Below are positions 636-23,181 of a DNA stretch of 23,754 nt, piece by piece. Numbering within the stretch: the first letter of the stretch is position 1; every line of letters begins with the position of its first letter. The stretch is taken from the IMG/VR virus record IMGVR_UViG_3300019742_000013, positions 1-23,754 of that record; one strand, given 5' to 3'. Source of the DNA: a virus. A model generated the notes under the pieces. It saw only the letters and a program-made list of their open reading frames with translations. It made no database searches and had not been told where the DNA came from. The translations under genes were made by a program, and so were the position numbers.

Positions 636-1001
636 TTAATTATTTTGTGAATTATAGAGTTATGAGTATGAATATTAGCTATATGATAGAATAGTGTTTA
701 AAAGCATAGAATAGGCTATATAAGGGCTTTTAGTATGTTTAGCTATAGATACTATTAATAAAGATTTTAAATGGATTTATAAAGAATTGGTGTTTAAATC
801 ATCATAAAGGTATTGTAAAGGCTTATGAGTAGATTTAAGGTATCTATCCATTGATTTAGCTATATATTGGATTAAATGGGCTACTCTATGCTTTTAAAGG
901 CTATATATGAGTATCTATTGATTTATATATATTTAAGCTTATTTTAAGTAGATTTATGATGATATATCAATAATTATTCAAAAAAAATAGGCAATTATCT
1001 G

Positions 1002-1020
1002 TACAAGTCCCCGGCACAAC
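1002..1020. other. GC-rich patch, candidate cos or packaging site
   Basis: GTCCCCGGCAC (1007-1017) has 9 G/C in 11 bases, inside a region that is otherwise nearly all A/T. It lies about 120 bp before terS. Cohesive-end sites are often GC-rich and sit here, and the HNH gene after terL is of the type that assists cos cleavage. Function is inferred from position and composition only. Confidence 0.35.
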
Positions 1021-1062
1021 ATTTTTAACTATCTAAATATATTTCAAAAAATCTCAAATGAC

Positions 1063-1068
1063 TATAAT
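1063..1068 (+). promoter_or_regulatory. Possible TATAAT -10 hexamer upstream of terS
   Basis: A perfect TATAAT hexamer 70 bp before the terS ATG, with no clear -35 partner. It could be a host-type promoter, but A/T richness makes chance matches common. Confidence 0.3.
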
Positions 1069-1107
1069 CCATTATTATATAAATATAAACTTTTCAAATT
1101 AACTAAT

Positions 1108-1117
1108 TATATAAATA
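1108..1117 (+). promoter_or_regulatory. TATATAAATA promoter-like motif for the terminase operon
   Basis: The decamer ends 21 bases before the terS ATG and is followed by the SD-like AACAAGG. An extra TATAAATA lies at 1078-1085. Confidence 0.6.
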
Positions 1118-1138
1118 AAATAAAACAAGGAATTAAAA

Positions 1139-1501
1139 ATGAAATTAAATGAAGTTGGGAAAAGTATTAAAAAAGGAATAATAGATTATCTTAAAGAAAT
1201 AGATGAATATAGAAAAGTAGAAGAAATAATCCTAATTGACTCTACAGCAAAAAGTTATGAGTTATATATTAAATATCAGGATTTAGCAGAAGCTGAAATG
1301 AATAATGATGATGATGATGAAAAGTTACTAGCTTTAAAATATCACGCGTTATCTTCTAAACAATATGTAATGTACACAACTAATTTAAAAACTTTAGGAG
1401 TAACAGCTATTCAAAGAGCTAAGATTAAAATAGTTCAAGATGAGGAAGAAGATGAAGATAACATATTAAGTGTTATTAAAAATGGTTTAAAAGAAGATTA
1501 A
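1139..1501 (+). CDS. terS: Terminase small subunit (P27-like)
   Basis: A 120-residue protein just upstream of the large terminase, separated by 2 bases. It should bind the packaging site and load the large subunit. Residues about 65-97 (KYHALSSKQYVMYTTNLKTLGVTAIQRAKIK) follow the P27-family C-terminal pattern of a helix, then LGVT and a basic R.K stretch. A run of acidic residues (NDDDDE, about 55-60) lies in the middle and the C-terminus is also acidic (DEEEDED). The SD is ACAAGGA with ATG at 1139. The leader, including AACAAGGAATTAAAAATG, is nearly identical to that of the tail chaperone gene at 12723. The family call rests on the C-terminal pattern, length and position. Confidence 0.7.
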   Translation: MKLNEVGKSIKKGIIDYLKEIDEYRKVEEIILIDSTAKSYELYIKYQDLAEAEMNNDDDDEKLLALKYHALSSKQYVMYTTNLKTLGVTAIQRAKIKIVQDEEEDEDNILSVIKNGLKED

Positions 1502-1503
1502 AT

Positions 1504-3177
1504 ATGGATATTAAAAAACTATGTGAGGAGTTAATCAAAGAGAAACCTGATTATCAGTATACAAAAACTTTTAAAAGGCATTTGAGGGATTTAGAAAACT
1601 TAGATAAAGATAAGTATAGATTTAATAAAAAAATGGCAAATATGTATATAGTTGTTTTAGAATCTTTAAAACATAGTACAGGAACTTTAGCAGGACAAAA
1701 TATTAAATTAGAAAAATGGCAAATAGCTACTTTTTCAATTTCTATGGGTTGGGAACAAAAAAATAAAAATGGTATTTGGATTAGAAGATTTAGTACGCAA
1801 TTATATTTTATGGGTAGAAAAAACGGTAAGACATTAATCGCGGCAGGTTTAAGTCTAGCAGATACTTTAATTAGACAAGAAGCAAAAGGAGAATTAGTTT
1901 GTATAGCTACTAAATCAGACCAAAGTCTATTGGCTTTAAATCAAGTTGTTAGTATGATTAAAGCAGATAAAAAGCTAAGTAAAATATATAAAAAAAGAGG
2001 TAATAAATATACATCATCGCTTGACGAAACTACATTATATAATCTAGGAAGTGACTCTACAAAACAAGATGGATTAAATATATCTGTTTTAATTTCTGAT
2101 GAAGCACACGCGATGAGAGATAGTTCTTTGATGGATGTTTGTACTAGTTCTATGGGAGCAAGATTACAACCTTTACATATTATTATTAGTACAGCAGGAT
2201 TTAACTTAGCTAGTCCTTTAGTATCAGAAATTGAATATAGTAGAAAAATATTAGATGAAGAGTTAGAAGATGAAAATTACTTTTGTTTTTTAGCAGAACC
2301 AAATGAAAAAGACGATAGTTATACATTAGAAACATTAAAAAAATCTAATCCTAATCTAGGTGTAAGTATTAGTGAAGAGTTTTTAATAAAAGAAATGGAA
2401 ACAGCTATAGAGAGAAATGATAAAAAAGCTAATTACTTAACTAAATATGTTAATAAGTTTGTCAATAGTTCTGAAGAGTTTATATCTATAGAAGATTGGA
2501 AGAACTGTAGAAATGATGATTATGTAGTAGATTATTCTAATATTAAAAGTATTTTAATAGGAGCAGATTTAAGTGTCAGTGAGGATTTATCTAGCTTAGT
2601 AATAGGTTATTTAACTAAAGAAAATGATTTATATATAAAAGCACTTACTTATATGCCTTTTGATAAGGTTATAGCCAATTCTAAGAACTTTAAAGCACCA
2701 TTACAAGTTTGGATAGATAGAGGTTATTTAACTACTACAAAAGGCAAGTATATAGATTATAATATAATATATGAGGATATGAAAGAGGTTATAGATGAGG
2801 GATATGAAGAGGGTATAAATGTAGAGGTTTACTATGATGCTTATAAGTTTAGAGCTATTAAAGAAAGATTAGAAAATGAATTAAACTTTACTCAATCTTT
2901 TAGTGTTAATCAAAACTTTAGAACTCTATCAGAACCTCTAAATCTTATGTCTAATCATATTCAGCAACATAAAATAATCTATAAGAATAATGCTATTTTC
3001 AATTGGGCTATTAGTAATGTAGTAGTAGTTAGAGATAAAGATGGTAATATAAAAATAGATAAATCTTCTCGACAAAATAAGATAGACCCTGTAGCAAGTT
3101 TAGGGAATATTTTCTATGGGTTATTAGATAAGTTAGATAATGTTGAAGAAGAAGTACAAGGATTATTTTATGTCTAA
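1504..3177 (+). CDS. terL: Terminase large subunit, packaging ATPase and nuclease
   Basis: A 557-residue motor protein of the HK97/Terminase_1 type that drives DNA into the prohead and cuts it. Walker A is GRKNGKT (residues 104-110) and Walker B is VLISDEAH (195-202), with the DE pair positioned for catalysis. The coupling motif STAG follows near residue 230. The nuclease domain begins with the acidic motif ILIGADLSVSEDLSSLV around Asp355, as expected for the RNase H-like fold. The length is normal for the family. It overlaps the next gene by 8 bases. Unlike most HK97-like phages, the portal gene does not follow; it lies 4.4 kb further on. Confidence 0.95.
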   Translation: MDIKKLCEELIKEKPDYQYTKTFKRHLRDLENLDKDKYRFNKKMANMYIVVLESLKHSTGTLAGQNIKLEKWQIATFSISMGWEQKNKNGIWIRRFSTQLYFMGRKNGKTLIAAGLSLADTLIRQEAKGELVCIATKSDQSLLALNQVVSMIKADKKLSKIYKKRGNKYTSSLDETTLYNLGSDSTKQDGLNISVLISDEAHAMRDSSLMDVCTSSMGARLQPLHIIISTAGFNLASPLVSEIEYSRKILDEELEDENYFCFLAEPNEKDDSYTLETLKKSNPNLGVSISEEFLIKEMETAIERNDKKANYLTKYVNKFVNSSEEFISIEDWKNCRNDDYVVDYSNIKSILIGADLSVSEDLSSLVIGYLTKENDLYIKALTYMPFDKVIANSKNFKAPLQVWIDRGYLTTTKGKYIDYNIIYEDMKEVIDEGYEEGINVEVYYDAYKFRAIKERLENELNFTQSFSVNQNFRTLSEPLNLMSNHIQQHKIIYKNNAIFNWAISNVVVVRDKDGNIKIDKSSRQNKIDPVASLGNIFYGLLDKLDNVEEEVQGLFYV

Positions 3178-3499
3178 AAAGAATATATATAATAATAGAA
3201 AATGGAGGAAATTAAGATTATATCATATCTCTAATAATCCTCTATGTGCTTATTGTTATCCTAAGATAGTAGAAGCAACACAAGTAGACCATTGTATTCC
3301 TTTTGATTTAGAAGATAAAGAAAGTATAGATAGGTTGTTTTTAGAAGAAGATAATCTTATTTCTACTTGTTCTACTTGCCACGGTTTAATTACTTTTATA
3401 CAGCAGGGTTTAGATTTTAAAAATATGAGTTTTGAAGAGGCTAAAAGATTTAAAATAAGCAAAATGGTTAAGAAAGTAGGAATAGATGGATTTTATTAA
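3170..3499 (+). CDS. HNH endonuclease, packaging-associated type
   Basis: A 109-residue HNH nuclease. The frame is open from 3140, but ATG 3170 is chosen because AAGGA sits 7 bases upstream and the protein then starts MSKKNIYNNRKWRKLR, as usual in this family. Cys26 and Cys29 (PLCAYC) with Cys67 and Cys70 (CSTC) form the structural zinc site. The active-site motif has Asp40-His41 (VDH), Asn62 (DNL) and His71 (CH). Small HNH proteins next to terminase genes are known to work with terminase in cos-type packaging (HK97 gp74 is the model), so this gene argues for cohesive ends. It overlaps terL by 8 bases, indicating co-translation. Confidence 0.88.
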   Translation: MSKKNIYNNRKWRKLRLYHISNNPLCAYCYPKIVEATQVDHCIPFDLEDKESIDRLFLEEDNLISTCSTCHGLITFIQQGLDFKNMSFEEAKRFKISKMVKKVGIDGFY

Positions 3500-3534
3500 A
3501 AATAATCTAAAAAGTGGATTAGAAATAAAATAAG

Positions 3535-3587
3535 GCTAAAAGTGAGTATTAATTAGTTATTCTTTATATAAAAACACCACTTTTAGC
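3535..3587 (+). repeat. 53-bp hairpin repeat, copy 1
   Basis: Identical to 3871-3923. The ends GCTAAAAGTG and CACTTTTAGC pair, and flanking bases extend the stem to 14 bp (3531-3544 with 3578-3591) around a 33-base loop. Here the pair just outside the repeat is G3534-C3588. Confidence 0.9.
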
Positions 3588-3634
3588 CTTAATAATAAAA
3601 TAGAGAAAAAATAAAAAATAAAGTATATTCTTTT

Positions 3635-3640
3635 TATAAT
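3635..3640 (+). promoter_or_regulatory. TATAAT -10 reading into the inner inverted repeat
   Basis: TTCTTTTTATAATAG ends just before the inner arm AGTGTAGTG at 3641. A start about 7 bases downstream would produce an RNA beginning within the left arm. No clear -35 box. The right arm also carries a TATAGT hexamer in the opposite direction (3820-3815). Confidence 0.4.
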
Positions 3641-3817
3641 AGTGTAGTGTAACGGAACTGTTATAAAATTAATATATGTCTCTAATATAGCTTTAGCTAT
3701 GTTAGTAAATGAGGACTTCTAAATAGTAAATATAATCTTTTAATATGTTTTATTACTTACAGAGCTAACGCTCTATAAGATGTGTACATTTATTTTTATA
3801 GTTCGTTACACTACACT
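3641..3817 (+). ncRNA. Candidate structured RNA or origin core
   Basis: The closing stem (3641-3658 with 3801-3817) encloses about 140 bases with no open frame but two neat hairpins: ATAGC-TTTA-GCTAT (3687-3700) and AGAGC-TAAC-GCTCT (3761-3774). A TATAAT hexamer lies just upstream. This could be a folded RNA of about 180 bases or a DNA cruciform for initiator binding. No known RNA family is recognised. Confidence 0.35.
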
Positions 3818-3870
3818 ATAAAAACAACTATACGACATAATATTTATTTTTTCTCTATTATATTAATAAA

Positions 3871-3923
3871 GCTAAAAGTGAGTATTAATTAGTTATTCTT
3901 TATATAAAAACACCACTTTTAGC
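3871..3923 (+). repeat. 53-bp hairpin repeat, copy 2
   Basis: Identical to 3535-3587 and in the same orientation. Flanking bases extend the stem to 16 bp (3865-3880 with 3914-3929). The flanking pair is A3870-T3924, a compensatory change relative to copy 1, which favours the local hairpin as the selected form. Confidence 0.9.
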
Positions 3924-4017
3924 TTTATTTTATTTCTAATCCACTTTTAGCTTTATTTTATTTTTTCTCTATTATAGTTTTTTAGACTTTCTTCTCTTAA
4001 TTTAGCTTAAAAATAAA

Positions 4018-4027
4018 TATATAAATA
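4018..4027 (+). promoter_or_regulatory. TATATAAATA motif left of the 74-aa gene
   Basis: An additional copy upstream of the 4050-4116 hairpin. A second TATAAATA (4086-4093) lies inside that hairpin loop. The start point for the 74-aa gene is uncertain. Confidence 0.4.
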
Positions 4028-4049
4028 ACTATATAAAAAGGTTATTTAA

Positions 4050-4116
4050 TTTAAGTCTAATATGAAAACACTCCTTGTTTTAAAATATAAATAAAATTAT
4101 ACATATTAGACTTAAA
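4050..4116 (+). promoter_or_regulatory. 15-bp hairpin with anti-SD in its loop, leader of the 74-aa gene
   Basis: TTTAAGTCTAATATG (4050-4064) pairs perfectly with CATATTAGACTTAAA (4102-4116). The loop contains CTCCTTGT (4071-4078), an exact complement of ACAAGGAG (4134-4141), which includes the SD of the gene at 4149. If transcribed, the two pairings could compete and control translation. It may instead be a relic of an inverted gene leader. Confidence 0.45.
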
Positions 4117-4148
4117 CTAGATAAAACTAAAACACAAGGAGAGTAACA

Positions 4149-4373
4149 ATGTATAGTAAAACAAATAAATTAATAAATTCTTTTTTAGAAATAGAGTCTA
4201 TAAAAACAAATAGAGATATGATGAATGAAAATGAATTAGTTACTTATTTAAGATATGTAAATACTGTTTTAAAAATAGACTTAGATATAGTTAAATTTCT
4301 TTTGATGACTAACATAGAGTTAGATATATTAATTAATAAATCGGATAAAAATAGCTTATTAAAAAGAATTTAA
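4149..4373 (+). CDS. Small protein of unknown function (74 aa)
   Basis: I do not recognise this protein. It is mostly helical and charged, with Lys/Asn/Ile-rich segments (SFLEIESIKTNRDMMNENELVTYLRYVNTVLK) and no cysteines or membrane segment. The ATG at 4149 has the strong SD AAGGAGAGTAACA. Its last 18 leader bases ACAAGGAGAGTAACAATG are identical to the start of the minus-strand HNH gene at 603. It stands alone between non-coding blocks in the replication island and is followed at once by a hairpin. A regulatory or replication-accessory role is plausible from position only. Confidence 0.65.
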   Translation: MYSKTNKLINSFLEIESIKTNRDMMNENELVTYLRYVNTVLKIDLDIVKFLLMTNIELDILINKSDKNSLLKRI

Positions 4374-4376
4374 ATC

Positions 4377-4395
4377 TTTCCTTATCATAAGGAAA
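4377..4395 (+). terminator. Hairpin after the 74-aa gene
   Basis: TTTCCTTA-TCA-TAAGGAAA begins 4 bases after the stop codon. It is a perfect 8-bp stem with a 3-base loop. There is only a weak T tract, so termination is uncertain. Confidence 0.5.
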
Positions 4396-4415
4396 CGATT
4401 TTCAAAGAATTTCAC

Positions 4416-4451
4416 TTTTTTCACTAAAATAAGCCATTTTTAGCGAAAAAA
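4416..4451. terminator. Bidirectional intrinsic terminator
   Basis: TTTTTTCACTAAAA (4416-4429) and TTTTAGCGAAAAAA (4438-4451) pair over 14 positions with one A-C mismatch and an 8-base loop. With A and T runs at both edges it fits an intrinsic terminator working in either direction. Confidence 0.55.
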
Positions 4452-4471
4452 TATATAAATATATATAAATA
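4452..4471 (+). repeat. Two overlapping-phase TATATAAATA copies, iteron-like
   Basis: Two decamers back to back, the second followed by GTTATAGATA. TATATAAATAGTTATAGATA (4462-4481) recurs at 4600-4619 and, with two changes, at 5127-5146. Three such 20-mers around the helicase gene could serve as promoter elements or as origin iterons. Confidence 0.5.
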
Positions 4472-4525
4472 GTTATAGATAGTTTTTGATTAAATTAAAA
4501 GAATTTCATTTATTTAAGCTTTTTT

Positions 4526-4566
4526 TAAGTAAAACCCTTTACATTTAGCTTTAATTTGGGTATAAT
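4526..4566 (+). promoter_or_regulatory. Host-type promoter (TTTGGGTATAAT)
   Basis: TATAAT at 4561-4566 is preceded by TTTGGG, matching the extended -10 of Campylobacterota housekeeping promoters, where a periodic T-rich region replaces a strict -35. TTTTAAGT lies at about 4523-4530 and T clusters follow at roughly helical spacing. It would drive the 85-aa gene and helicase, with a leader of nearly 300 bases containing the 90-bp repeat. It is the best candidate for the early promoter. Confidence 0.6.
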
Positions 4567-4599
4567 AAGGTATAGATAAAAAGAAGTAACTTTTTAAAA

Positions 4600-4619
4600 T
4601 ATATAAATAGTTATAGATA
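4600..4619 (+). repeat. 20-bp repeat TATATAAATAGTTATAGATA, second copy
   Basis: Exact match to 4462-4481 over 20 bases. It lies 33 bases after the TATAAT promoter, inside the predicted early leader. Confidence 0.6.
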
Positions 4620-4646
4620 AAGACATTAAATAATAAGAATTTTAAG

Positions 4647-4808
4647 AGGAGTACCAAACTTTCTTTTTAAATCAGAGAATTAACATTTTGTTAGTTTTCT
4701 TAAAGTTCTTTTATATGATATATGGCAACATCTTTTATTAGAGATAAATAGTTAAGTTTTAATTATTTACTTCTTATAAGGGATTTTGAAGAATGGTTTG
4801 GTACTCCT
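4647..4808 (+). promoter_or_regulatory. Long-range 13-bp inverted repeat in the early leader
   Basis: AGGAGTACCAAAC (4647-4659) is the exact reverse complement of GTTTGGTACTCCT at 4796-4808 inside the first 90-bp repeat, and again of 5215-5227 inside the second copy. One left arm can thus pair with either of two right arms in a transcript from the promoter at 4561. Confidence 0.6.
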
Positions 4809-4816
4809 TTCTTCTT
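4727..4816 (+). repeat. 90-bp direct repeat, copy 1 (leader of the 85-aa gene)
   Basis: Identical over all 90 bases to 5146-5235. It ends 49 bases before the ATG of the 85-aa gene. It contains TTAAGTTTT (4752-4760), then TATAAGG (4775-4781), which resembles a Campylobacterota promoter, and at its right end the arm GTTTGGTACTCCT. The duplicated position before two genes suggests a leader or promoter cassette. Confidence 0.95.
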
Positions 4817-4865
4817 AATATAAATCTTCTTAAAATTAAAATATTACCAAAATAGGAATAAAAAA

Positions 4866-5123
4866 ATGGATGAATTAATGATAATGGCACACGAAAAACA
4901 GTTAGAGAATTTAGTTAATATATTAGAGGATGTTTCTAATAATAAAATAAAAAATGATTTAGCTAACTTTTTAGATAAAGAAGTTGAAGGATATTTATTT
5001 TTTATAGATAATTTAGATTATACTACTTTTAAATCAAATTCATTCTATTTAGTTATAGAACAGTTAGCTAAGTTGATAGATGTTAATAAAACAACAAAAG
5101 ACTATCTAATTAAGTATAAATAA
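4866..5123 (+). CDS. Small protein of unknown function (85 aa)
   Basis: No family is recognised. The sequence is helical and acidic (MAHEKQLENLVNILEDVSNN, later EVEGYLFFIDNLDYTTF), with no membrane segment or metal motif. The SD is weak (AGGAAT, 8 bases before ATG). It lies 143 bases ahead of the helicase gene, and both genes carry an identical 90-bp leader, which suggests common control and perhaps a shared role in replication or early regulation. Expression is supported by context and codon use only. Confidence 0.6.
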   Translation: MDELMIMAHEKQLENLVNILEDVSNNKIKNDLANFLDKEVEGYLFFIDNLDYTTFKSNSFYLVIEQLAKLIDVNKTTKDYLIKYK

Positions 5124-5126
5124 AAT

Positions 5127-5136
5127 TATATAAATA
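5127..5136 (+). promoter_or_regulatory. TATATAAATA motif before the second 90-bp repeat
   Basis: The decamer is followed by AGTATAGATA, close to the GTTATAGATA that follows the copies at 4462 and 4600. It lies 10 bases before the 90-bp repeat. It could be a promoter or an iteron. Confidence 0.45.
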
Positions 5137-5145
5137 AGTATAGAT

Positions 5146-5235
5146 AACATCTTTTATTAGAGATAAATAGTTAAGTTTTAATTATTTACTTCTTATAAGG
5201 GATTTTGAAGAATGGTTTGGTACTCCTTTCTTCTT
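5146..5235 (+). repeat. 90-bp direct repeat, copy 2 (leader of the helicase gene)
   Basis: Identical to 4727-4816, offset 419 bp, and ends 31 bases before the helicase ATG. The absence of any mismatch indicates recent duplication or ongoing conversion. Confidence 0.95.
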
Positions 5236-5266
5236 TAATCTCTAATTTAAAAATTAGGAATACAAA

Positions 5267-7243
5267 ATGAAAAACAAATTTACAACAACAGAGTTGAAAG
5301 AGAGTAAAATTTCTTTTAATACACAAGCCAAAGAAACAAATATAACACTAGAAAAAGGTATATATTTATCCAATCTAAAAGAGTTTAAAAGTAAAGATTT
5401 ATTTATAGATAATGGAGTTAATCTATTAGACTCTCCTACAAATTCAGGTAAATCTCATTATGTTTTAAATGACTATATTAACAATATTAAAAGTGATGAA
5501 TATATTATTTTAATAGCCCCAACTCTAGTTTTAGTTGATGATTTATCAAGTGATGATAATGCTTATGGATTTAAAGGAAACTTTGATAGAAAAGAGTTAG
5601 AAAAAAAGAGAATATTAGTATGTGTTTATGATAAGTTAAAAGATTTAGTTAAACATCAAGATGATAATTTCAATCTAAAAAAAGCTCATATATTTATTGA
5701 TGAAGCTCATAATATATACTCTTCTTTTAACTATAGAAGTAAAGTAATGATTGAAATTGATAATCTTTTATTTAAAAAGAAACAATATAAAAAACTAATA
5801 TTAATGAGTGGAACTTTTGATAACACTCTAATTGAAATTAATAATATTGTTAAAGTAAAAAGAGATTTTAAAATCACTAAAAAATGCAATCTTATATATG
5901 TAGCAAAAAATAAAACTCTTAGAAATAGTTGTCTATCTTTAGTTATAGATACTTATAAAGAAGATAATACTAGATTACAAGTTATATATCAAAAAAGTAA
6001 ACCTAGATTAGAAGAGTTAGCTTTAACTTTAGAAAAAAAAGGTATTAAATGTTTAGTATTAACAGCAGATACTAAACTAAATGAAGAAGTACAAGGTTTA
6101 CTTAAAAATAACTATGTAGATAAAGATATTAAAGTTTTATTAATGACTAATATAGGTGAAGAGGGTATATCTATATTGAATGAAAACTTATATTGTACCC
6201 ATACAGTAGGTAAAATTAATTCGGCATCTGCTGAACAGTTAGGTAATAGAGGTAGAAGAGTTGAACCTGTTTTAAATGTACATCTAAAATTAGAAGATGA
6301 AAACAAGATAATACCTATATTTATGGATGTAGAGAAAAATAGAAGTTTATTTTTGGGTAGAACTAATCTTTTTAATCAAGGTATTAAAAATGGTTTATTT
6401 AGATTTGAAGATAGACATACACAAGATTTTATGAATTATTGTACTTGGGATAATGAAAATAGTTTATTAGAATTTAGTAATTTAACAATAGCGTTTGATG
6501 TACATTATAACAATAATAAAAATGAAGAAAATTTATATAGAACTATTTTTATGGATAATATGGAGAAGTATGGTTGGGAATTTGAAAGTTACGGTACTAA
6601 AGAAGATAATAAATTTGAAATATCTAAAGTTGAAATAACAGATAAAGATTTGATATTAGAAATCTTTGAAGCATATACTAAAAATAGAGATATAAAAGGC
6701 AATAAAAAAGATTTTATAGATACCAATAAAGAGTTGTGTAATATAGCTTTACTTGATAAAATGTATCATAAGTTTACTTTTATATCTTTTTATATATTTG
6801 ATGATAAGATTATAGAACAAATTAAAAGAATGACAAGACAAAATAATACTATTGATAGATTAGAAGAGTATATTAAAGTATCTATTCTAAAAGAAAGAAA
6901 TAATGCCACTAAATGGTTATTTGAAAATATAGAAGCTGATACTTTATATGATAATGAACAATTAGAAATTTTAACTAAATCTTATAATATTGAAAGTAAA
7001 AATGATAGATTTAGAACTGATAAACATAAAGAAATAGATGTAAAAATGTTTAAAAAGATTATTAAAAAGTTTTTTATCACTAAAGATGTAAATGTTAATA
7101 AAAGTAAAACAGTTGAAAAGTCATATAAAAAATTTAAAGTAGTTGGACTTATTAAATATGCAAATAAAAGAGAGAATAATACTAAAAAAATAATTCAACT
7201 CAAAACTGAAACAATAGAAGATTTAGACTTTCTAAAACTATAA
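5267..7243 (+). CDS. SF2 DEAD/DEAH-box helicase, likely phage replication protein
   Basis: A 658-residue superfamily 2 helicase and the only clear replication gene. Motif I is SPTNSGKS (56-63), Ia APTLVLVDDL (84-93), II IDEAH (144-148), III SGTF (181-184), IV QVIYQKSK (238-245), V MTNIGEEGISI (293-303) and VI QLGNRGRR (324-331). The arrangement resembles phage and herpes-type origin-binding helicases, in which an SF2 motor opens the origin. The C-terminal 320 residues are Lys/Asn-rich with no recognised domain; they may bind DNA, and the last 40 residues are very basic. The SD is weak (AGGAA). Flanking repeats and hairpins fit an adjacent origin. No primase or polymerase is encoded, so host enzymes are probably used. 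The helicase call is firm; the origin role is inferred. Confidence 0.85.
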   Translation: MKNKFTTTELKESKISFNTQAKETNITLEKGIYLSNLKEFKSKDLFIDNGVNLLDSPTNSGKSHYVLNDYINNIKSDEYIILIAPTLVLVDDLSSDDNAYGFKGNFDRKELEKKRILVCVYDKLKDLVKHQDDNFNLKKAHIFIDEAHNIYSSFNYRSKVMIEIDNLLFKKKQYKKLILMSGTFDNTLIEINNIVKVKRDFKITKKCNLIYVAKNKTLRNSCLSLVIDTYKEDNTRLQVIYQKSKPRLEELALTLEKKGIKCLVLTADTKLNEEVQGLLKNNYVDKDIKVLLMTNIGEEGISILNENLYCTHTVGKINSASAEQLGNRGRRVEPVLNVHLKLEDENKIIPIFMDVEKNRSLFLGRTNLFNQGIKNGLFRFEDRHTQDFMNYCTWDNENSLLEFSNLTIAFDVHYNNNKNEENLYRTIFMDNMEKYGWEFESYGTKEDNKFEISKVEITDKDLILEIFEAYTKNRDIKGNKKDFIDTNKELCNIALLDKMYHKFTFISFYIFDDKIIEQIKRMTRQNNTIDRLEEYIKVSILKERNNATKWLFENIEADTLYDNEQLEILTKSYNIESKNDRFRTDKHKEIDVKMFKKIIKKFFITKDVNVNKSKTVEKSYKKFKVVGLIKYANKRENNTKKIIQLKTETIEDLDFLKL

Positions 7244-7247
7244 AATA

Positions 7248-7282
7248 ATGGAGGTAGATATACATTGTCTATAAACCTCCAT
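7248..7282. terminator. Hairpin after the helicase gene
   Basis: ATGGAGGT (7248-7255) pairs with ACCTCCAT (7275-7282), with a short inner TAGA/TCTA pairing. It starts 5 bases after the helicase stop codon. There is no T run after it on the + strand, so it may be a weak or factor-dependent terminator. Confidence 0.4.
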
Positions 7283-7397
7283 CTAAAAAACTCAATTACT
7301 TTTACCTCCTATATAAAGGCTGTATGAGGTTATACATTAATCTCTTTATACTACGAAGCCTAAATCTATACATAACTAATATTACTCCAACTCTAAT

Positions 7398-7412
7398 TAA
7401 TAACCATTATCA
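7398..7412. promoter_or_regulatory. Operator-like palindrome 1
   Basis: TAATAACCATTATCA matches consensus TRATAACCATTATYA, half-sites TGATAA/TTATCA around a 3-base centre. It is the most diverged copy of the three. Confidence 0.5.
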
Positions 7413-7466
7413 AATACTCCTCCCTATTATACTATATATAAACCTAAATTAACTCTATTATAACTA

Positions 7467-7491
7467 CTAATCATATTGATAACCATTATTA
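7467..7491. promoter_or_regulatory. Operator-like palindrome 2
   Basis: TGATAACCATTATTA (7477-7491) preceded by CTAATCATAT, a longer block shared with copy 3. It lies 13 bases after a TATAAC hexamer (7459-7464) and 19 bases before TATAAT (7510-7515), so a bound protein could affect either promoter. Confidence 0.55.
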
Positions 7492-7554
7492 AAAAAACTA
7501 CTTAATAACTATAATACCTCTTAAATAATCATCTTTCATAGTATAACAAACCCA

Positions 7555-7579
7555 CTAATCATATTGATAACCATTATCA
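7555..7579. promoter_or_regulatory. Operator-like palindrome 3
   Basis: TGATAACCATTATCA (7565-7579) is a near-perfect palindrome (TGATAA-CCA-TTATCA), again preceded by CTAATCATAT. It lies only 4 bases before the TATATAAATA motif of the portal gene, a good place to repress or activate it. It resembles a Fur box, but a phage regulator is at least as likely. Confidence 0.55.
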
Positions 7580-7582
7580 TTT

Positions 7583-7592
7583 TATATAAATA
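7583..7592 (+). promoter_or_regulatory. TATATAAATA promoter-like motif for portal and protease
   Basis: Ends 23 bases before the portal ATG, with SD AAAAAGGAG between them. Confidence 0.6.
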
Positions 7593-7615
7593 ACTCTAAA
7601 AAGGAGTATTAAAAT

Positions 7616-8770
7616 ATGGAAGAAATAAGAAGTGTTGATAATATTTTTGGAAGTACATCTATAACTAATAACACTAATGTAGAGGGTATTTCAGCAGTAT
7701 ATGCTTGTGTTAAACTATTAGCTCAATCTATAGCATCAACTGATTTAATACATAGAGATAACGATAGAGAAGTTTTGAGTTCTTCAATAATTTCTAAGAG
7801 ATTAAAAGAACCTCAAAAAAATAAAACTTTTTATGGTTGGATGAGTTCACTAGCTTATGATTTAGTATTAAAAGGGAACGCTTATGCAATTATTTTAGAC
7901 GATGAATTATTATATGTAGAGAGTGAGAAAGTACAGGTATATCTAACTAATCAACAGGAAAATCCTTACTATTATCAAATTAACCACTATGGTAAATCTT
8001 TTCAATTATTCCCTGATAGTATTCTACATTTTAAGAATATAAGTAGTAATGGAATAATAGGAGTTAATCCAATTCATACCCATTCTAGTACATTTAATAG
8101 TTCTTTAGCTATGCAAGAATACCAAACTAAATTTGTAGATAACTCTGCTCAAATTAGTGGTGTTTTGAATATTACAGGTGTACTAAATAAAAAAACACAA
8201 TTAGAGTTAAAAGATAATTTTGGTGTTAAGTTTGGAGGAAGTCAAAATGCAGGTAAGATACCTGTTTTACCTGATAATGTGGAGTTTAAACAACTCAATA
8301 GAATAAGTCCTTTAGATATGGATTATATTAATTCTGCTAAGTTAAATAAAACACAAATAGCAGAGATATTTCAAGTCCCTTTATCTTTTTTAGGTACTGA
8401 AATGACTTATAATAATGCAGAAGTAGAGAGTTTAAGATTTAACAATTATACATTACAACCTTTGTTTAAATCTATAGAACAAGAGATGAGTTTAAAACTT
8501 TTAGATACACAAGATAGTAAATTAGAGTTTATAGTAGATAGTATTAAAATGGCTTCAACTAAAGAGAAATCAGACTCACTATCTTTACTCAAAAACACAG
8601 GAATTATAACACCTAACGAAGCTAGAAAACACTTTGGTTATCCTGCTATTAAAGGTGGAGATGAATTAACTAAAGAAGAGAATTTAAAAGGTGAAGCATT
8701 AGCTCAACCTAAAAATACAGATGATACTAATCCAACGGCTGAAAAAATCACACCACCATCAAAACAATAA
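7616..8770 (+). CDS. Portal protein (HK97 family)
   Basis: A 384-residue portal that forms the dodecameric vertex ring through which DNA enters and leaves and to which terminase docks. The N-terminal GISAVYACVKLLAQSIAS (about 24-41) is the hallmark start of HK97-type portals. It is followed by WMSSLAYDLVLKGNAYAII (about 76-94), FKNISSNGIIGVNPI (about 140-154), and AEIFQVPLSFLG...NNAEVESLRF (about 247-275). The C-terminus is Pro/Thr-rich and disordered. The length is normal. ATG 7616 has SD AAAGGAG 8 bases upstream. It begins the head operon with the protease gene 14 bases downstream. Confidence 0.95.
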   Translation: MEEIRSVDNIFGSTSITNNTNVEGISAVYACVKLLAQSIASTDLIHRDNDREVLSSSIISKRLKEPQKNKTFYGWMSSLAYDLVLKGNAYAIILDDELLYVESEKVQVYLTNQQENPYYYQINHYGKSFQLFPDSILHFKNISSNGIIGVNPIHTHSSTFNSSLAMQEYQTKFVDNSAQISGVLNITGVLNKKTQLELKDNFGVKFGGSQNAGKIPVLPDNVEFKQLNRISPLDMDYINSAKLNKTQIAEIFQVPLSFLGTEMTYNNAEVESLRFNNYTLQPLFKSIEQEMSLKLLDTQDSKLEFIVDSIKMASTKEKSDSLSLLKNTGIITPNEARKHFGYPAIKGGDELTKEENLKGEALAQPKNTDDTNPTAEKITPPSKQ

Positions 8771-21688: not shown

Positions 21689-21818
21689 TTTAGAAGATTT
21701 TGAGAAGCTTGTTAAGTTAAGTCAAGATAAAGATAGATATATAGCTAAGTTAGAAAAAAGTAATAAGGCGTATGAAGAACAAATTAAGATATACAAAGAG
21801 TTAAGTAAAGTTCTTTAA
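21663..21818 (+). CDS. Small coiled-coil protein (51 aa)
   Basis: MSSKIVEISLEDFEKLVKLSQDKDRYIAKLEKSNKAYEEQIKIYKELSKVL is almost entirely helical, with heptad hydrophobic spacing and high Lys/Glu content. The SD TGGAGG is strong and lies 6 bases before ATG 21663, inside the o-spanin gene. The stop overlaps the end of the minus-strand GIY-YIG-like gene by 4 bases. Its function is unknown; as last gene of the lysis string it may be a lysis regulator or simply a host-interaction factor. Confidence 0.65.
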   Translation: MSSKIVEISLEDFEKLVKLSQDKDRYIAKLEKSNKAYEEQIKIYKELSKVL

Positions 21819-22183
21819 TAACTTTTAAAGAACTTTCCACTTATATTTTTATTAACAAATGAATTATCTATATTTAAAACATCATATTCAAATAATAATT
21901 TAGTTTCAATATAGGTAGCTTCACCTACAAATTCACAAGCTCTTAATATCTCTTTAGTAACATTACCCCACTTTTTAACATCATCACTAGAACTTTGATA
22001 ATCTCTCCATTTAGTCTCTTTAATAGTCCATTTTTTATTAACTCTATTTTTAACTTTTTTAGATGTTTTACTAAATAAATTCTTTTTACCTATATACTTT
22101 TCATTAGTTATATTATTAGTTATTAGATACACAATAGCTTTATGTTTAGTTATATCTACTATTTCTTCATTAATCCAACTCAT
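21815..22183 (-). CDS. GIY-YIG-like endonuclease (T4 Seg-like)
   Basis: 122 residues. The N-terminal AIVYLITNNITNEKYIGKKNLF (about 16-37) has the YLI...YIG pattern of GIY-YIG nucleases. It continues with KETKWRDYQSSSDDVKKWG (about 55-73), then EILRACEFVGEATYIETKLLFEYDVL (about 79-104), with Glu92 in the position of the conserved catalytic acid region. This order, including W..Y..SS and EA.Y.E....., matches Seg-type phage proteins. It is on the opposite strand to the virion and lysis genes, converges on the small coiled-coil gene and overlaps the upstream 90-residue gene by 4 bases. A mobile-element origin is likely; activity is unproven. Confidence 0.72.
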   Translation of the reverse strand: MSWINEEIVDITKHKAIVYLITNNITNEKYIGKKNLFSKTSKKVKNRVNKKWTIKETKWRDYQSSSDDVKKWGNVTKEILRACEFVGEATYIETKLLFEYDVLNIDNSFVNKNISGKFFKSY

Positions 22184-22495: not shown

Positions 22496-22654
22496 ATGAA
22501 CCAACAATGGCAAACTAAAGCAAGTAAAGAAATACTATCAGAGCTAATGAGTAAAGAGGGTGTATATTTTGGTATAGAAATGGATAATGAGTTAGAGCAA
22601 CTTAGAGCTGATATAGTAGAGTTTGAATTAAGACCTACAAAGGAGATAGTATAA
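22496..22654 (+). CDS. Small protein of unknown function (52 aa)
   Basis: MNQQWQTKASKEILSELMSKEGVYFGIEMDNELEQLRADIVEFELRPTKEIV is acidic and helical, with no family recognised. SD AAGGAAG lies 7 bases before ATG 22496. The stop codon shares one base with the next start (TAATG), so the two genes are probably co-translated. It opens the short operon that leads to the endolysin. Confidence 0.65.
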   Translation: MNQQWQTKASKEILSELMSKEGVYFGIEMDNELEQLRADIVEFELRPTKEIV

Positions 22655-23181
22655 TGTTAAGTGATAAATTAGAGTACGGTAAAGTACAAGATAATGTATA
22701 CTTTAATAAAGGATTTAATTTAGAGTTTAGTATGAGTAACTATCAAGATGATAAAATGCTTAAAGAATTATCTAATACACTAAAAGAACAATTTGGTGAG
22801 GATAGAATTAAAAAAGCATTTGATTTTAAGACTTTAGAAGATGTTGAAGTAGATAGATGTAAAGAATATTATAATAGTATGAATTGTAACTTACAAGAAG
22901 TAGGTGAAGATGTTGAAGTAGATAGATGTAAAGAATATTATAATAGTATGAATTGTAACTTACAAGAAGTAGGTGAAGATGTTTGGTTGATGAATAATAA
23001 TAAACCAACTTCAGGTAAGATATATGAGAGAAATACTGAACTAAATAGAGCTGATAGTAAGACTGTTATTATTACTTATACTGTTAAGCTACCGAGTGGT
23101 GAATATGTAAAGACTAAAGAAGTATTTAAAACTAAAGATGATTTATTTGTAGCTTTATCTAAGGAGTTATATAATGTTTGA
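22654..23181 (+). CDS. Unknown protein with a tandem 23-residue duplication (175 aa)
   Basis: 175 residues of unknown family. Residues about 62-107 are two identical copies of a 23-residue unit (EDVEVDRCKEYYNSMNCNLQ + EVG), followed by the first three residues of a third. Each unit carries two cysteines 11 residues apart. The C-terminal part (GKIYERNTELNRADSKTVIITYTVKLPSGEYVKTKEVFKTKDDLFVAL) looks like a small beta domain. SD AAGGAG lies 10 bases before ATG 22654. It overlaps the next gene by 8 bases. The repeat is in frame and identical in DNA, so it is young. Confidence 0.75.
   Translation: MLSDKLEYGKVQDNVYFNKGFNLEFSMSNYQDDKMLKELSNTLKEQFGEDRIKKAFDFKTLEDVEVDRCKEYYNSMNCNLQEVGEDVEVDRCKEYYNSMNCNLQEVGEDVWLMNNNKPTSGKIYERNTELNRADSKTVIITYTVKLPSGEYVKTKEVFKTKDDLFVALSKELYNV
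22837..22983 (+). repeat. 69-bp perfect tandem duplication in a coding gene
   Basis: Unit 22837-22905 is repeated exactly at 22906-22974, followed by the first 9 bases of the unit again (22975-22983). The period of 69 keeps the frame. Slippage between the 9-base GAAGATGTT copies could have created it. Confidence 0.95.

Follow-up and report, generated by a model that had tools for sequence, protein, structure and literature searches.

The window, the whole 23,754-nt stretch of IMG/VR record IMGVR_UViG_3300019742_000013, carries at about 3500-3959 two copies of a ~230-bp non-coding unit, one inverted relative to the other (an inverted duplication). Both units have kept three local hairpins (H1, H2, and H3) while about 21% of the aligned positions diverged. 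Kept hairpins in drifted sequence suggest a switch for replication, or an RNA. We are confident of the anatomy: the unit is duplicated in inverted orientation, one loop is itself inverted, and local hairpins have been kept. As to function, we tentatively read the element as an origin or replication-control region, built of two inverted structured units beside the phage helicase gene, with a probability of about 0.4.

Layout of the inverted duplication

When the window was compared with itself, 3499-3959 matched its own reverse complement over 474 columns with 73% identity (E about 1e-58), in agreement with the inverted surroundings described in the first-pass annotation. The left unit (3500-3728) is read on the + strand and the right unit (about 3729-3959) on the - strand. 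The left half was aligned to the reverse complement of the right half after the right-hand H1 loop had been turned round, and 179 of 226 positions were identical (79%), with 47 differences and a single 3-column internal gap. Only 4 differences fall in 3510-3615, and two of them make up the G-C/A-T pair of H1 discussed below. From 3616 inward the differences are frequent, and the inner part is far more diverged than the outer part. The first-pass annotation had described three layers of arms around a 140-base core, but there is one continuous inverted duplication, which runs through the supposed core too. It was right that no reading frame is present, since the ORF list is empty for 3500-4148.

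Folding of the region gave a z of about -14 both as RNA and as DNA, and none of 100 shuffles was equal. The next-largest fold-back, among the rest of the window and 174 other loci (2.26 Mb, from phages and prophages plus a few contigs picked up by chance pattern matches), was 117 bp. An assembly or amplification artefact was ruled out because the arms differ by ~4% in the outer part and by much more inside.

Two kinds of short repeat accompany the units. An A-rich box in the left copy (3591-3616, + strand, with AATAGAGAAAAAATA at 3599-3613) contains the -10-like sequence TAAAAT pointing inward and may be a promoter. The right copy has a corresponding inward-pointing A-rich box (TATAATAGAGAAAAAATAAA, 3843-3862, - strand), and a partial third copy of arm and box (3941-3976, - strand, direct repeats D2 and D4) lies at and just outside the right end. 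The half-site CACTTTTAG occurs five times exactly within 3508-3950, at 3536 (-), 3578 (+), 3872 (-), 3914 (+), and 3942 (+), and a variant one base longer is at 3508. Five exact copies compare with 0.5 expected (0 of 100 shuffles), the copies being related through duplication. No exact copy was found elsewhere in the genome.

Local hairpins and the flipped loop

The identical 53-nt blocks reported earlier are present in direct orientation at 3535-3587 and 3871-3923, and each consists of GCTAAAAGTG, a 33-nt loop, and CACTTTTAGC. Immediately outside the block, the left copy has the pair G3534-C3588 and the right copy A3870-T3924. Every base that had been named is correct. H1 left (3531-3591, + strand) has a 14-bp stem (3531-3544/3578-3591) around loop 3545-3577, and H1 right (3865-3929, + strand) has a 16-bp stem (3865-3880/3914-3929) around loop 3881-3913. 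The only same-direction sequence in both copies is the 33-nt loop; the right loop is identical to the left one and is direct, not inverted.

From the exchanged base pair the first-pass annotation had argued for selection on two local hairpins. When the left copy was mutated at random toward the right one, an equally good H1 was kept in 45% of trials, against 2.6% in the reverse direction, and a single G-C/A-T swap is weak evidence for selection. In two reports (PMC8604942, PMC8794818), template switching between hairpin arms or inverted repeats is described as inverting the spacer and making the arms match. H1 shows both a loop inversion between perfect stem arms and paired stem changes. This combination is the signature described for template switching, and thus the earlier argument for selection is weak. 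A template switch can produce the same-direction loop as well as the compensated pair, and the flipped loop is not evidence of selection by itself. The simplest account of it would be a single template switch, or a recombination event, involving both arms of the H1 stem, and it need not be functional. The 33/33 identity of the loops was dropped as a sign of selection or gene conversion, since the adjoining arm itself is ~96% identical. The hairpins in those two reports likewise combine matched changes in both stem arms with a loop that is inverted as a whole, but they come from genes of cellular organisms, whereas H1 is nested in a larger inverted duplication in a phage.

The flipped region does break the large-scale inverted pairing, as had been proposed. 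With the flip, long-range pairing is weaker by about 50 kcal/mol (from -194 to -144 as RNA). The long-range RNA fold is favoured by 53 kcal/mol in a loop-symmetric version and by only 6 kcal/mol in the real sequence; with the local hairpins so close behind the extended form, the loop flip shifts the balance toward local folding.

H2 left (3632-3668, + strand) has the stem TTTTATAATAGT/ACTGTTATAAAA and the loop GTAGTGTAACGGA, and H2 right (3793-3824, - strand) has the stem TTTTTATAGT/ACTATAAAAA and the loop GTAGTGTAACGA. The right stem is shorter by a paired 2-bp indel, and the loop GTAGTGTAACG(G)A is kept. H3 left (3682-3705, + strand) is CTAATATAGC-TTTA-GCTATGTTAG, a 10-bp stem with one G-U, and H3 right (3756-3779, - strand) is CTTATAGAGC-GTTA-GCTCTGTAAG, in which two stem pairs are changed on both sides. 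Compared between the two copies in this genome, the four stem substitutions of H3 thus fall into two compensated pairs, one changed from A-T to T-A and the other from T-A to G-C. Controls with five random substitutions in H3 were equally stable in 0.02% (left to right) and 2.1% (right to left) of cases, H2 and H3 having been selected after inspection of the data. Both hairpins are more stable on the inward strand in four of four cases (-9.2/-3.3 kcal/mol for H2 left, + against - strand, and -10.0/-5.7, -6.4/-5.6, and -13.4/-8.2 for the others). The difference comes mainly from G-U pairs, which are A-C on the opposite strand.

A whole-unit test was not built on the chosen hairpins, although its window and span settings were the analyst's choice. 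The observed substitutions were moved to random nearby sites with the same starting base, and the unit was refolded with a pairing span of 70 nt. On the inward strand, the right copy reached -51.9 (control mean -29.8, z -4.8) and the left copy -47.9 (control mean -29.7, z -4.5), with 0 of 600 controls as good for either. The outward strand gave z -3.1 and -3.4. When H1 was excluded and only the inner part was used, z was -5.7 and -3.0 on the inward strand and -3.2 and -1.6 on the outward strand. The hairpins behind the signal of kept folding are H2 and H3.

Pairs made by template switching are Watson-Crick pairs and favour neither strand. The G-U bias therefore leans toward selection acting on nucleic acid in single-stranded form, but with about two independent events behind it this is no more than suggestive. 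Of the claim that two local hairpins are under selection, one part stands: hairpins appear to be kept, by the whole-unit test and H3. The G-C/A-T swap on which the claim was built is weak, and template switching suffices for it.

Genomic context and searches for relatives

The window is a complete circular tailed-phage genome of 23,631 unique bases. Its first 123 bp are repeated at the end as a terminal direct repeat, which confirms the circle assumed in the first-pass annotation. The genome encodes TerS, TerL, HNH, portal, protease, capsid, tail, tape measure, and endolysin proteins, nearly all on the same strand. The palindrome, two small ORFs, and a helicase gene form a module between the TerS-TerL-HNH genes (end 3499) and the portal gene (7616). 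The element starts at the stop codon of the HNH endonuclease gene of the packaging cassette (3140-3499, + strand). A 74-aa ORF (4149-4373, + strand) matched no known family, and an 85-aa ORF (4866-5123, + strand) matched no confident family. The 658-aa SF2 helicase (DEAD/ResIII-like; 5267-7243, + strand) is the sole recognisable replication-type gene product. The lowest-GC 461-bp stretch of the genome (17% G+C) begins at 3837.

The nearest terminase relatives of this phage include Campylobacterota prophages, and judging from these relatives the host is probably a Campylobacterota bacterium. In five such prophages (L202-L206; TerL 37-40% identical) the portal gene directly follows TerL and the helicase module is absent from that place. 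The closest relative found was L208 (IMGVR_UViG_3300028534_000095; TerS 51%, TerL 54%, HNH 53%), which retains the endolysin-TerS-TerL-HNH block, while its replication and tail genes are arranged otherwise. L208 encodes at 970-3750 a 926-aa protein with a weak DEAD-helicase match. This protein is not detectably of the family of the window helicase, and thus replication genes differ between phages with a common packaging cassette. At the place of the element, after the same HNH gene, L208 has a simple terminator-like hairpin (7379-7431), and no large palindrome was found within 17 kb.

Searches for DNA homologues of the element in phages, plasmids, IMG/VR (patterns), and 397 + 347 Campylobacterota genomes gave only A+T-rich chance matches. 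The 50 IMG/VR matches to AGTGTAGTGTAACG had unrelated flanks, and Rfam 15 gave no match to the element at the gathering score. Relatives of the helicase were not found in phages, plasmids, IMG/VR, or a one-genome-per-species collection. Among 397 Campylobacterota genomes there were only weak matches (~25% over ~200 aa) resembling general DEAD-box helicases. An AlphaFold model made with no alignment supplied had a pLDDT of 32, and no family model recognised the protein as an initiator.

Several other features were seen in this genome. A 94-bp direct repeat (4727-4819 and 5146-5239, 98.9% identical) lies just upstream of the 85-aa ORF and the helicase gene and looks like a duplicated leader or operator element. 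Both copies fold into stable hairpins; in the first, GUUUGGUACUCCU is additionally paired to GAGGAGUACCAAAC near 4647, and 4640-4830 has a folding energy of -54.7 kcal/mol. A near-consensus promoter (TTTACA-17-TATAAT, 4538-4566) is also upstream of these two genes. The leader of the 74-aa ORF (4042-4148) has a hairpin loop with ACTCCTTG, the complement of a ribosome-binding site (CAAGGAG) shortly downstream of it, and is a possible translational switch. The palindromic box GATAACCATTATC occurs three times with 0-1 mismatch (7399-7411, 7478-7490, and 7566-7578) in the non-coding 370 bp ahead of the portal gene; genome-wide it has 8 matches at up to 2 mismatches against 1 expected, and it is operator-like. 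A lone G/C-rich patch, GTCCCCGGCAC (1007-1017), in the A+T-rich non-coding region before terS is a candidate cos site. A 78-bp tandem duplication (22837-22983) within a 175-aa ORF (22654-23181) repeats a peptide in frame. Two homing-type endonuclease genes, NUMOD1/HNH (127-603, -) and a SegE-like GIY-YIG (21815-22183, -), are oriented against nearly all other genes.

Possible functions of the element

An origin or replication-control region fits best with the position of the element, its base composition, its unique half-sites, and the neighbouring helicase gene. That gene lies 1.3 kb downstream, the lowest-GC stretch of the genome adjoins the element, and the candidate protein-binding half-sites are unique to the region. 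The kept local folding, the compensated pairs of H3, and the paired indel of H2 were also counted in favour, as was the place between the packaging cassette and an ORF/helicase module missing in the five prophages. Phage or host initiators would bind or open the CACTTTTAG half-sites and the hairpins, together with the helicase. Through the inverted pairing of its units, the element would offer a symmetric site of entry, or else control by structured RNAs read inward. On the other side, there are no exact DnaA boxes. Cumulative GC skew, in which the first-pass annotation had proposed to look for an origin, gave no origin signal and is positive almost all round the circle. No homologue of the element appeared in any of the searches described above. 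Moreover, L208 has only the terminator-like hairpin despite its related TerL, the helicase is not recognised as an initiator, and short-range template switching could by itself preserve paired stems that serve no function.

A phage-satellite origin of semi-palindromic repeats in a non-coding region is known from the PLE of Vibrio cholerae (PMC7145576). Like the present element, the PLE origin with RepA is non-coding and has direct and inverted repeats, which are needed there for replicating a small phage-related element. The PLE repeats are iterons of a RepA_N initiator, whereas no RepA_N gene was recognised here, only an SF2 helicase, and the phage region is one large inverted duplication. 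Two further resemblances are to plasmid and mobile DNA. Single-strand origins (sso) of rolling-circle plasmids are long imperfect palindromic non-coding regions that fold as single strands, much as this element does. Here the replicon is a tailed double-stranded DNA phage, and a rolling-circle origin was rejected as no Rep gene was recognised in the genome. A packaging signal is less likely, because the terminase genes have a single G/C-rich patch in their vicinity (1007-1017), and it precedes terS; that patch would be the better cos candidate, and cos/pac was rejected as the main reading.

It is possible but rather unlikely that the units encode two convergent small structured RNAs, each transcribed inward from its -10-like box and carrying H2 and H3. 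Since the units are inverted copies, the two transcripts would be partly mutual antisense, possibly a replication-control device. The greater inward-strand stability of H2 and H3 in all four cases, the stronger whole-unit test on that strand, and the -10-like box in both copies and in the third partial copy agree with such RNAs. But -10-like matches mean little in 80% A+T DNA (3300-7700 has 47 promoter-like sites against 39 expected), Rfam gave no match, and H1 departs from the inward orientation. A more specific version, in which near-complementary transcripts of an inverted RNA gene pair fold locally and exert self-antisense control of phage replication, is improbable.

A neutral or mobile fold-back relic is unlikely. 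Its source would be strand switching at a replication fork, or insertion of a MITE-like element, and recurrent short switches of template would have kept the stems paired and flipped the H1 loop in functionless DNA. Template switching homogenises arms and inverts spacers, as described in PMC8604942 and PMC8794818, and both features had been read as selection in the first-pass annotation. The large palindrome is also absent from the nearest relative. The kept hairpins nevertheless carry inward-strand G-U pairs, which template switching does not predict. Long palindromes are usually lost unless useful, and this was counted against a neutral relic. Fold-back and MITE elements have long inverted arms round a short core without coding capacity, which the element resembles. 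However, it is single-copy, and no other copies were found in 397 Campylobacterota genomes or pattern scans, which speaks against a mobile element. No target-site duplication was seen by eye at 3499/3959, where A+T-rich flanks make short ones unreadable. A terminator or insulator between the packaging operon and the replication module, with the H1 hairpins stopping outgoing transcription in both directions, is quite unlikely. Going outward, a T-rich run follows H1 on each side (TTATTTTATTT-type sequence after H1 right, TTTTATTTC on the - strand after H1 left), and L208 bears its compact terminator-like hairpin at the matching place. Intrinsic terminators are G+C-rich hairpins that are short, have loops of 3-8 nt, and are followed by a T run; loops of 33 nt and stems rich in A-T make poor terminators, and a terminator scan of 3300-7700 found none. 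Such a function would also leave H2, H3, and the duplication unexplained.

If functional, the element would be a replication-control element of a phage without a close relative in the collections searched. Its build would be unusual, an inverted duplication in which small hairpins are retained and some of the long-range pairing is lost. Were the units a self-antisense RNA pair, the loop inversion would have been retained as a bar to H1-H1 pairing. The two copies in one genome also offer a case for separating selection on hairpins from template-switch repair, through the strand that carries the G-U pairs.
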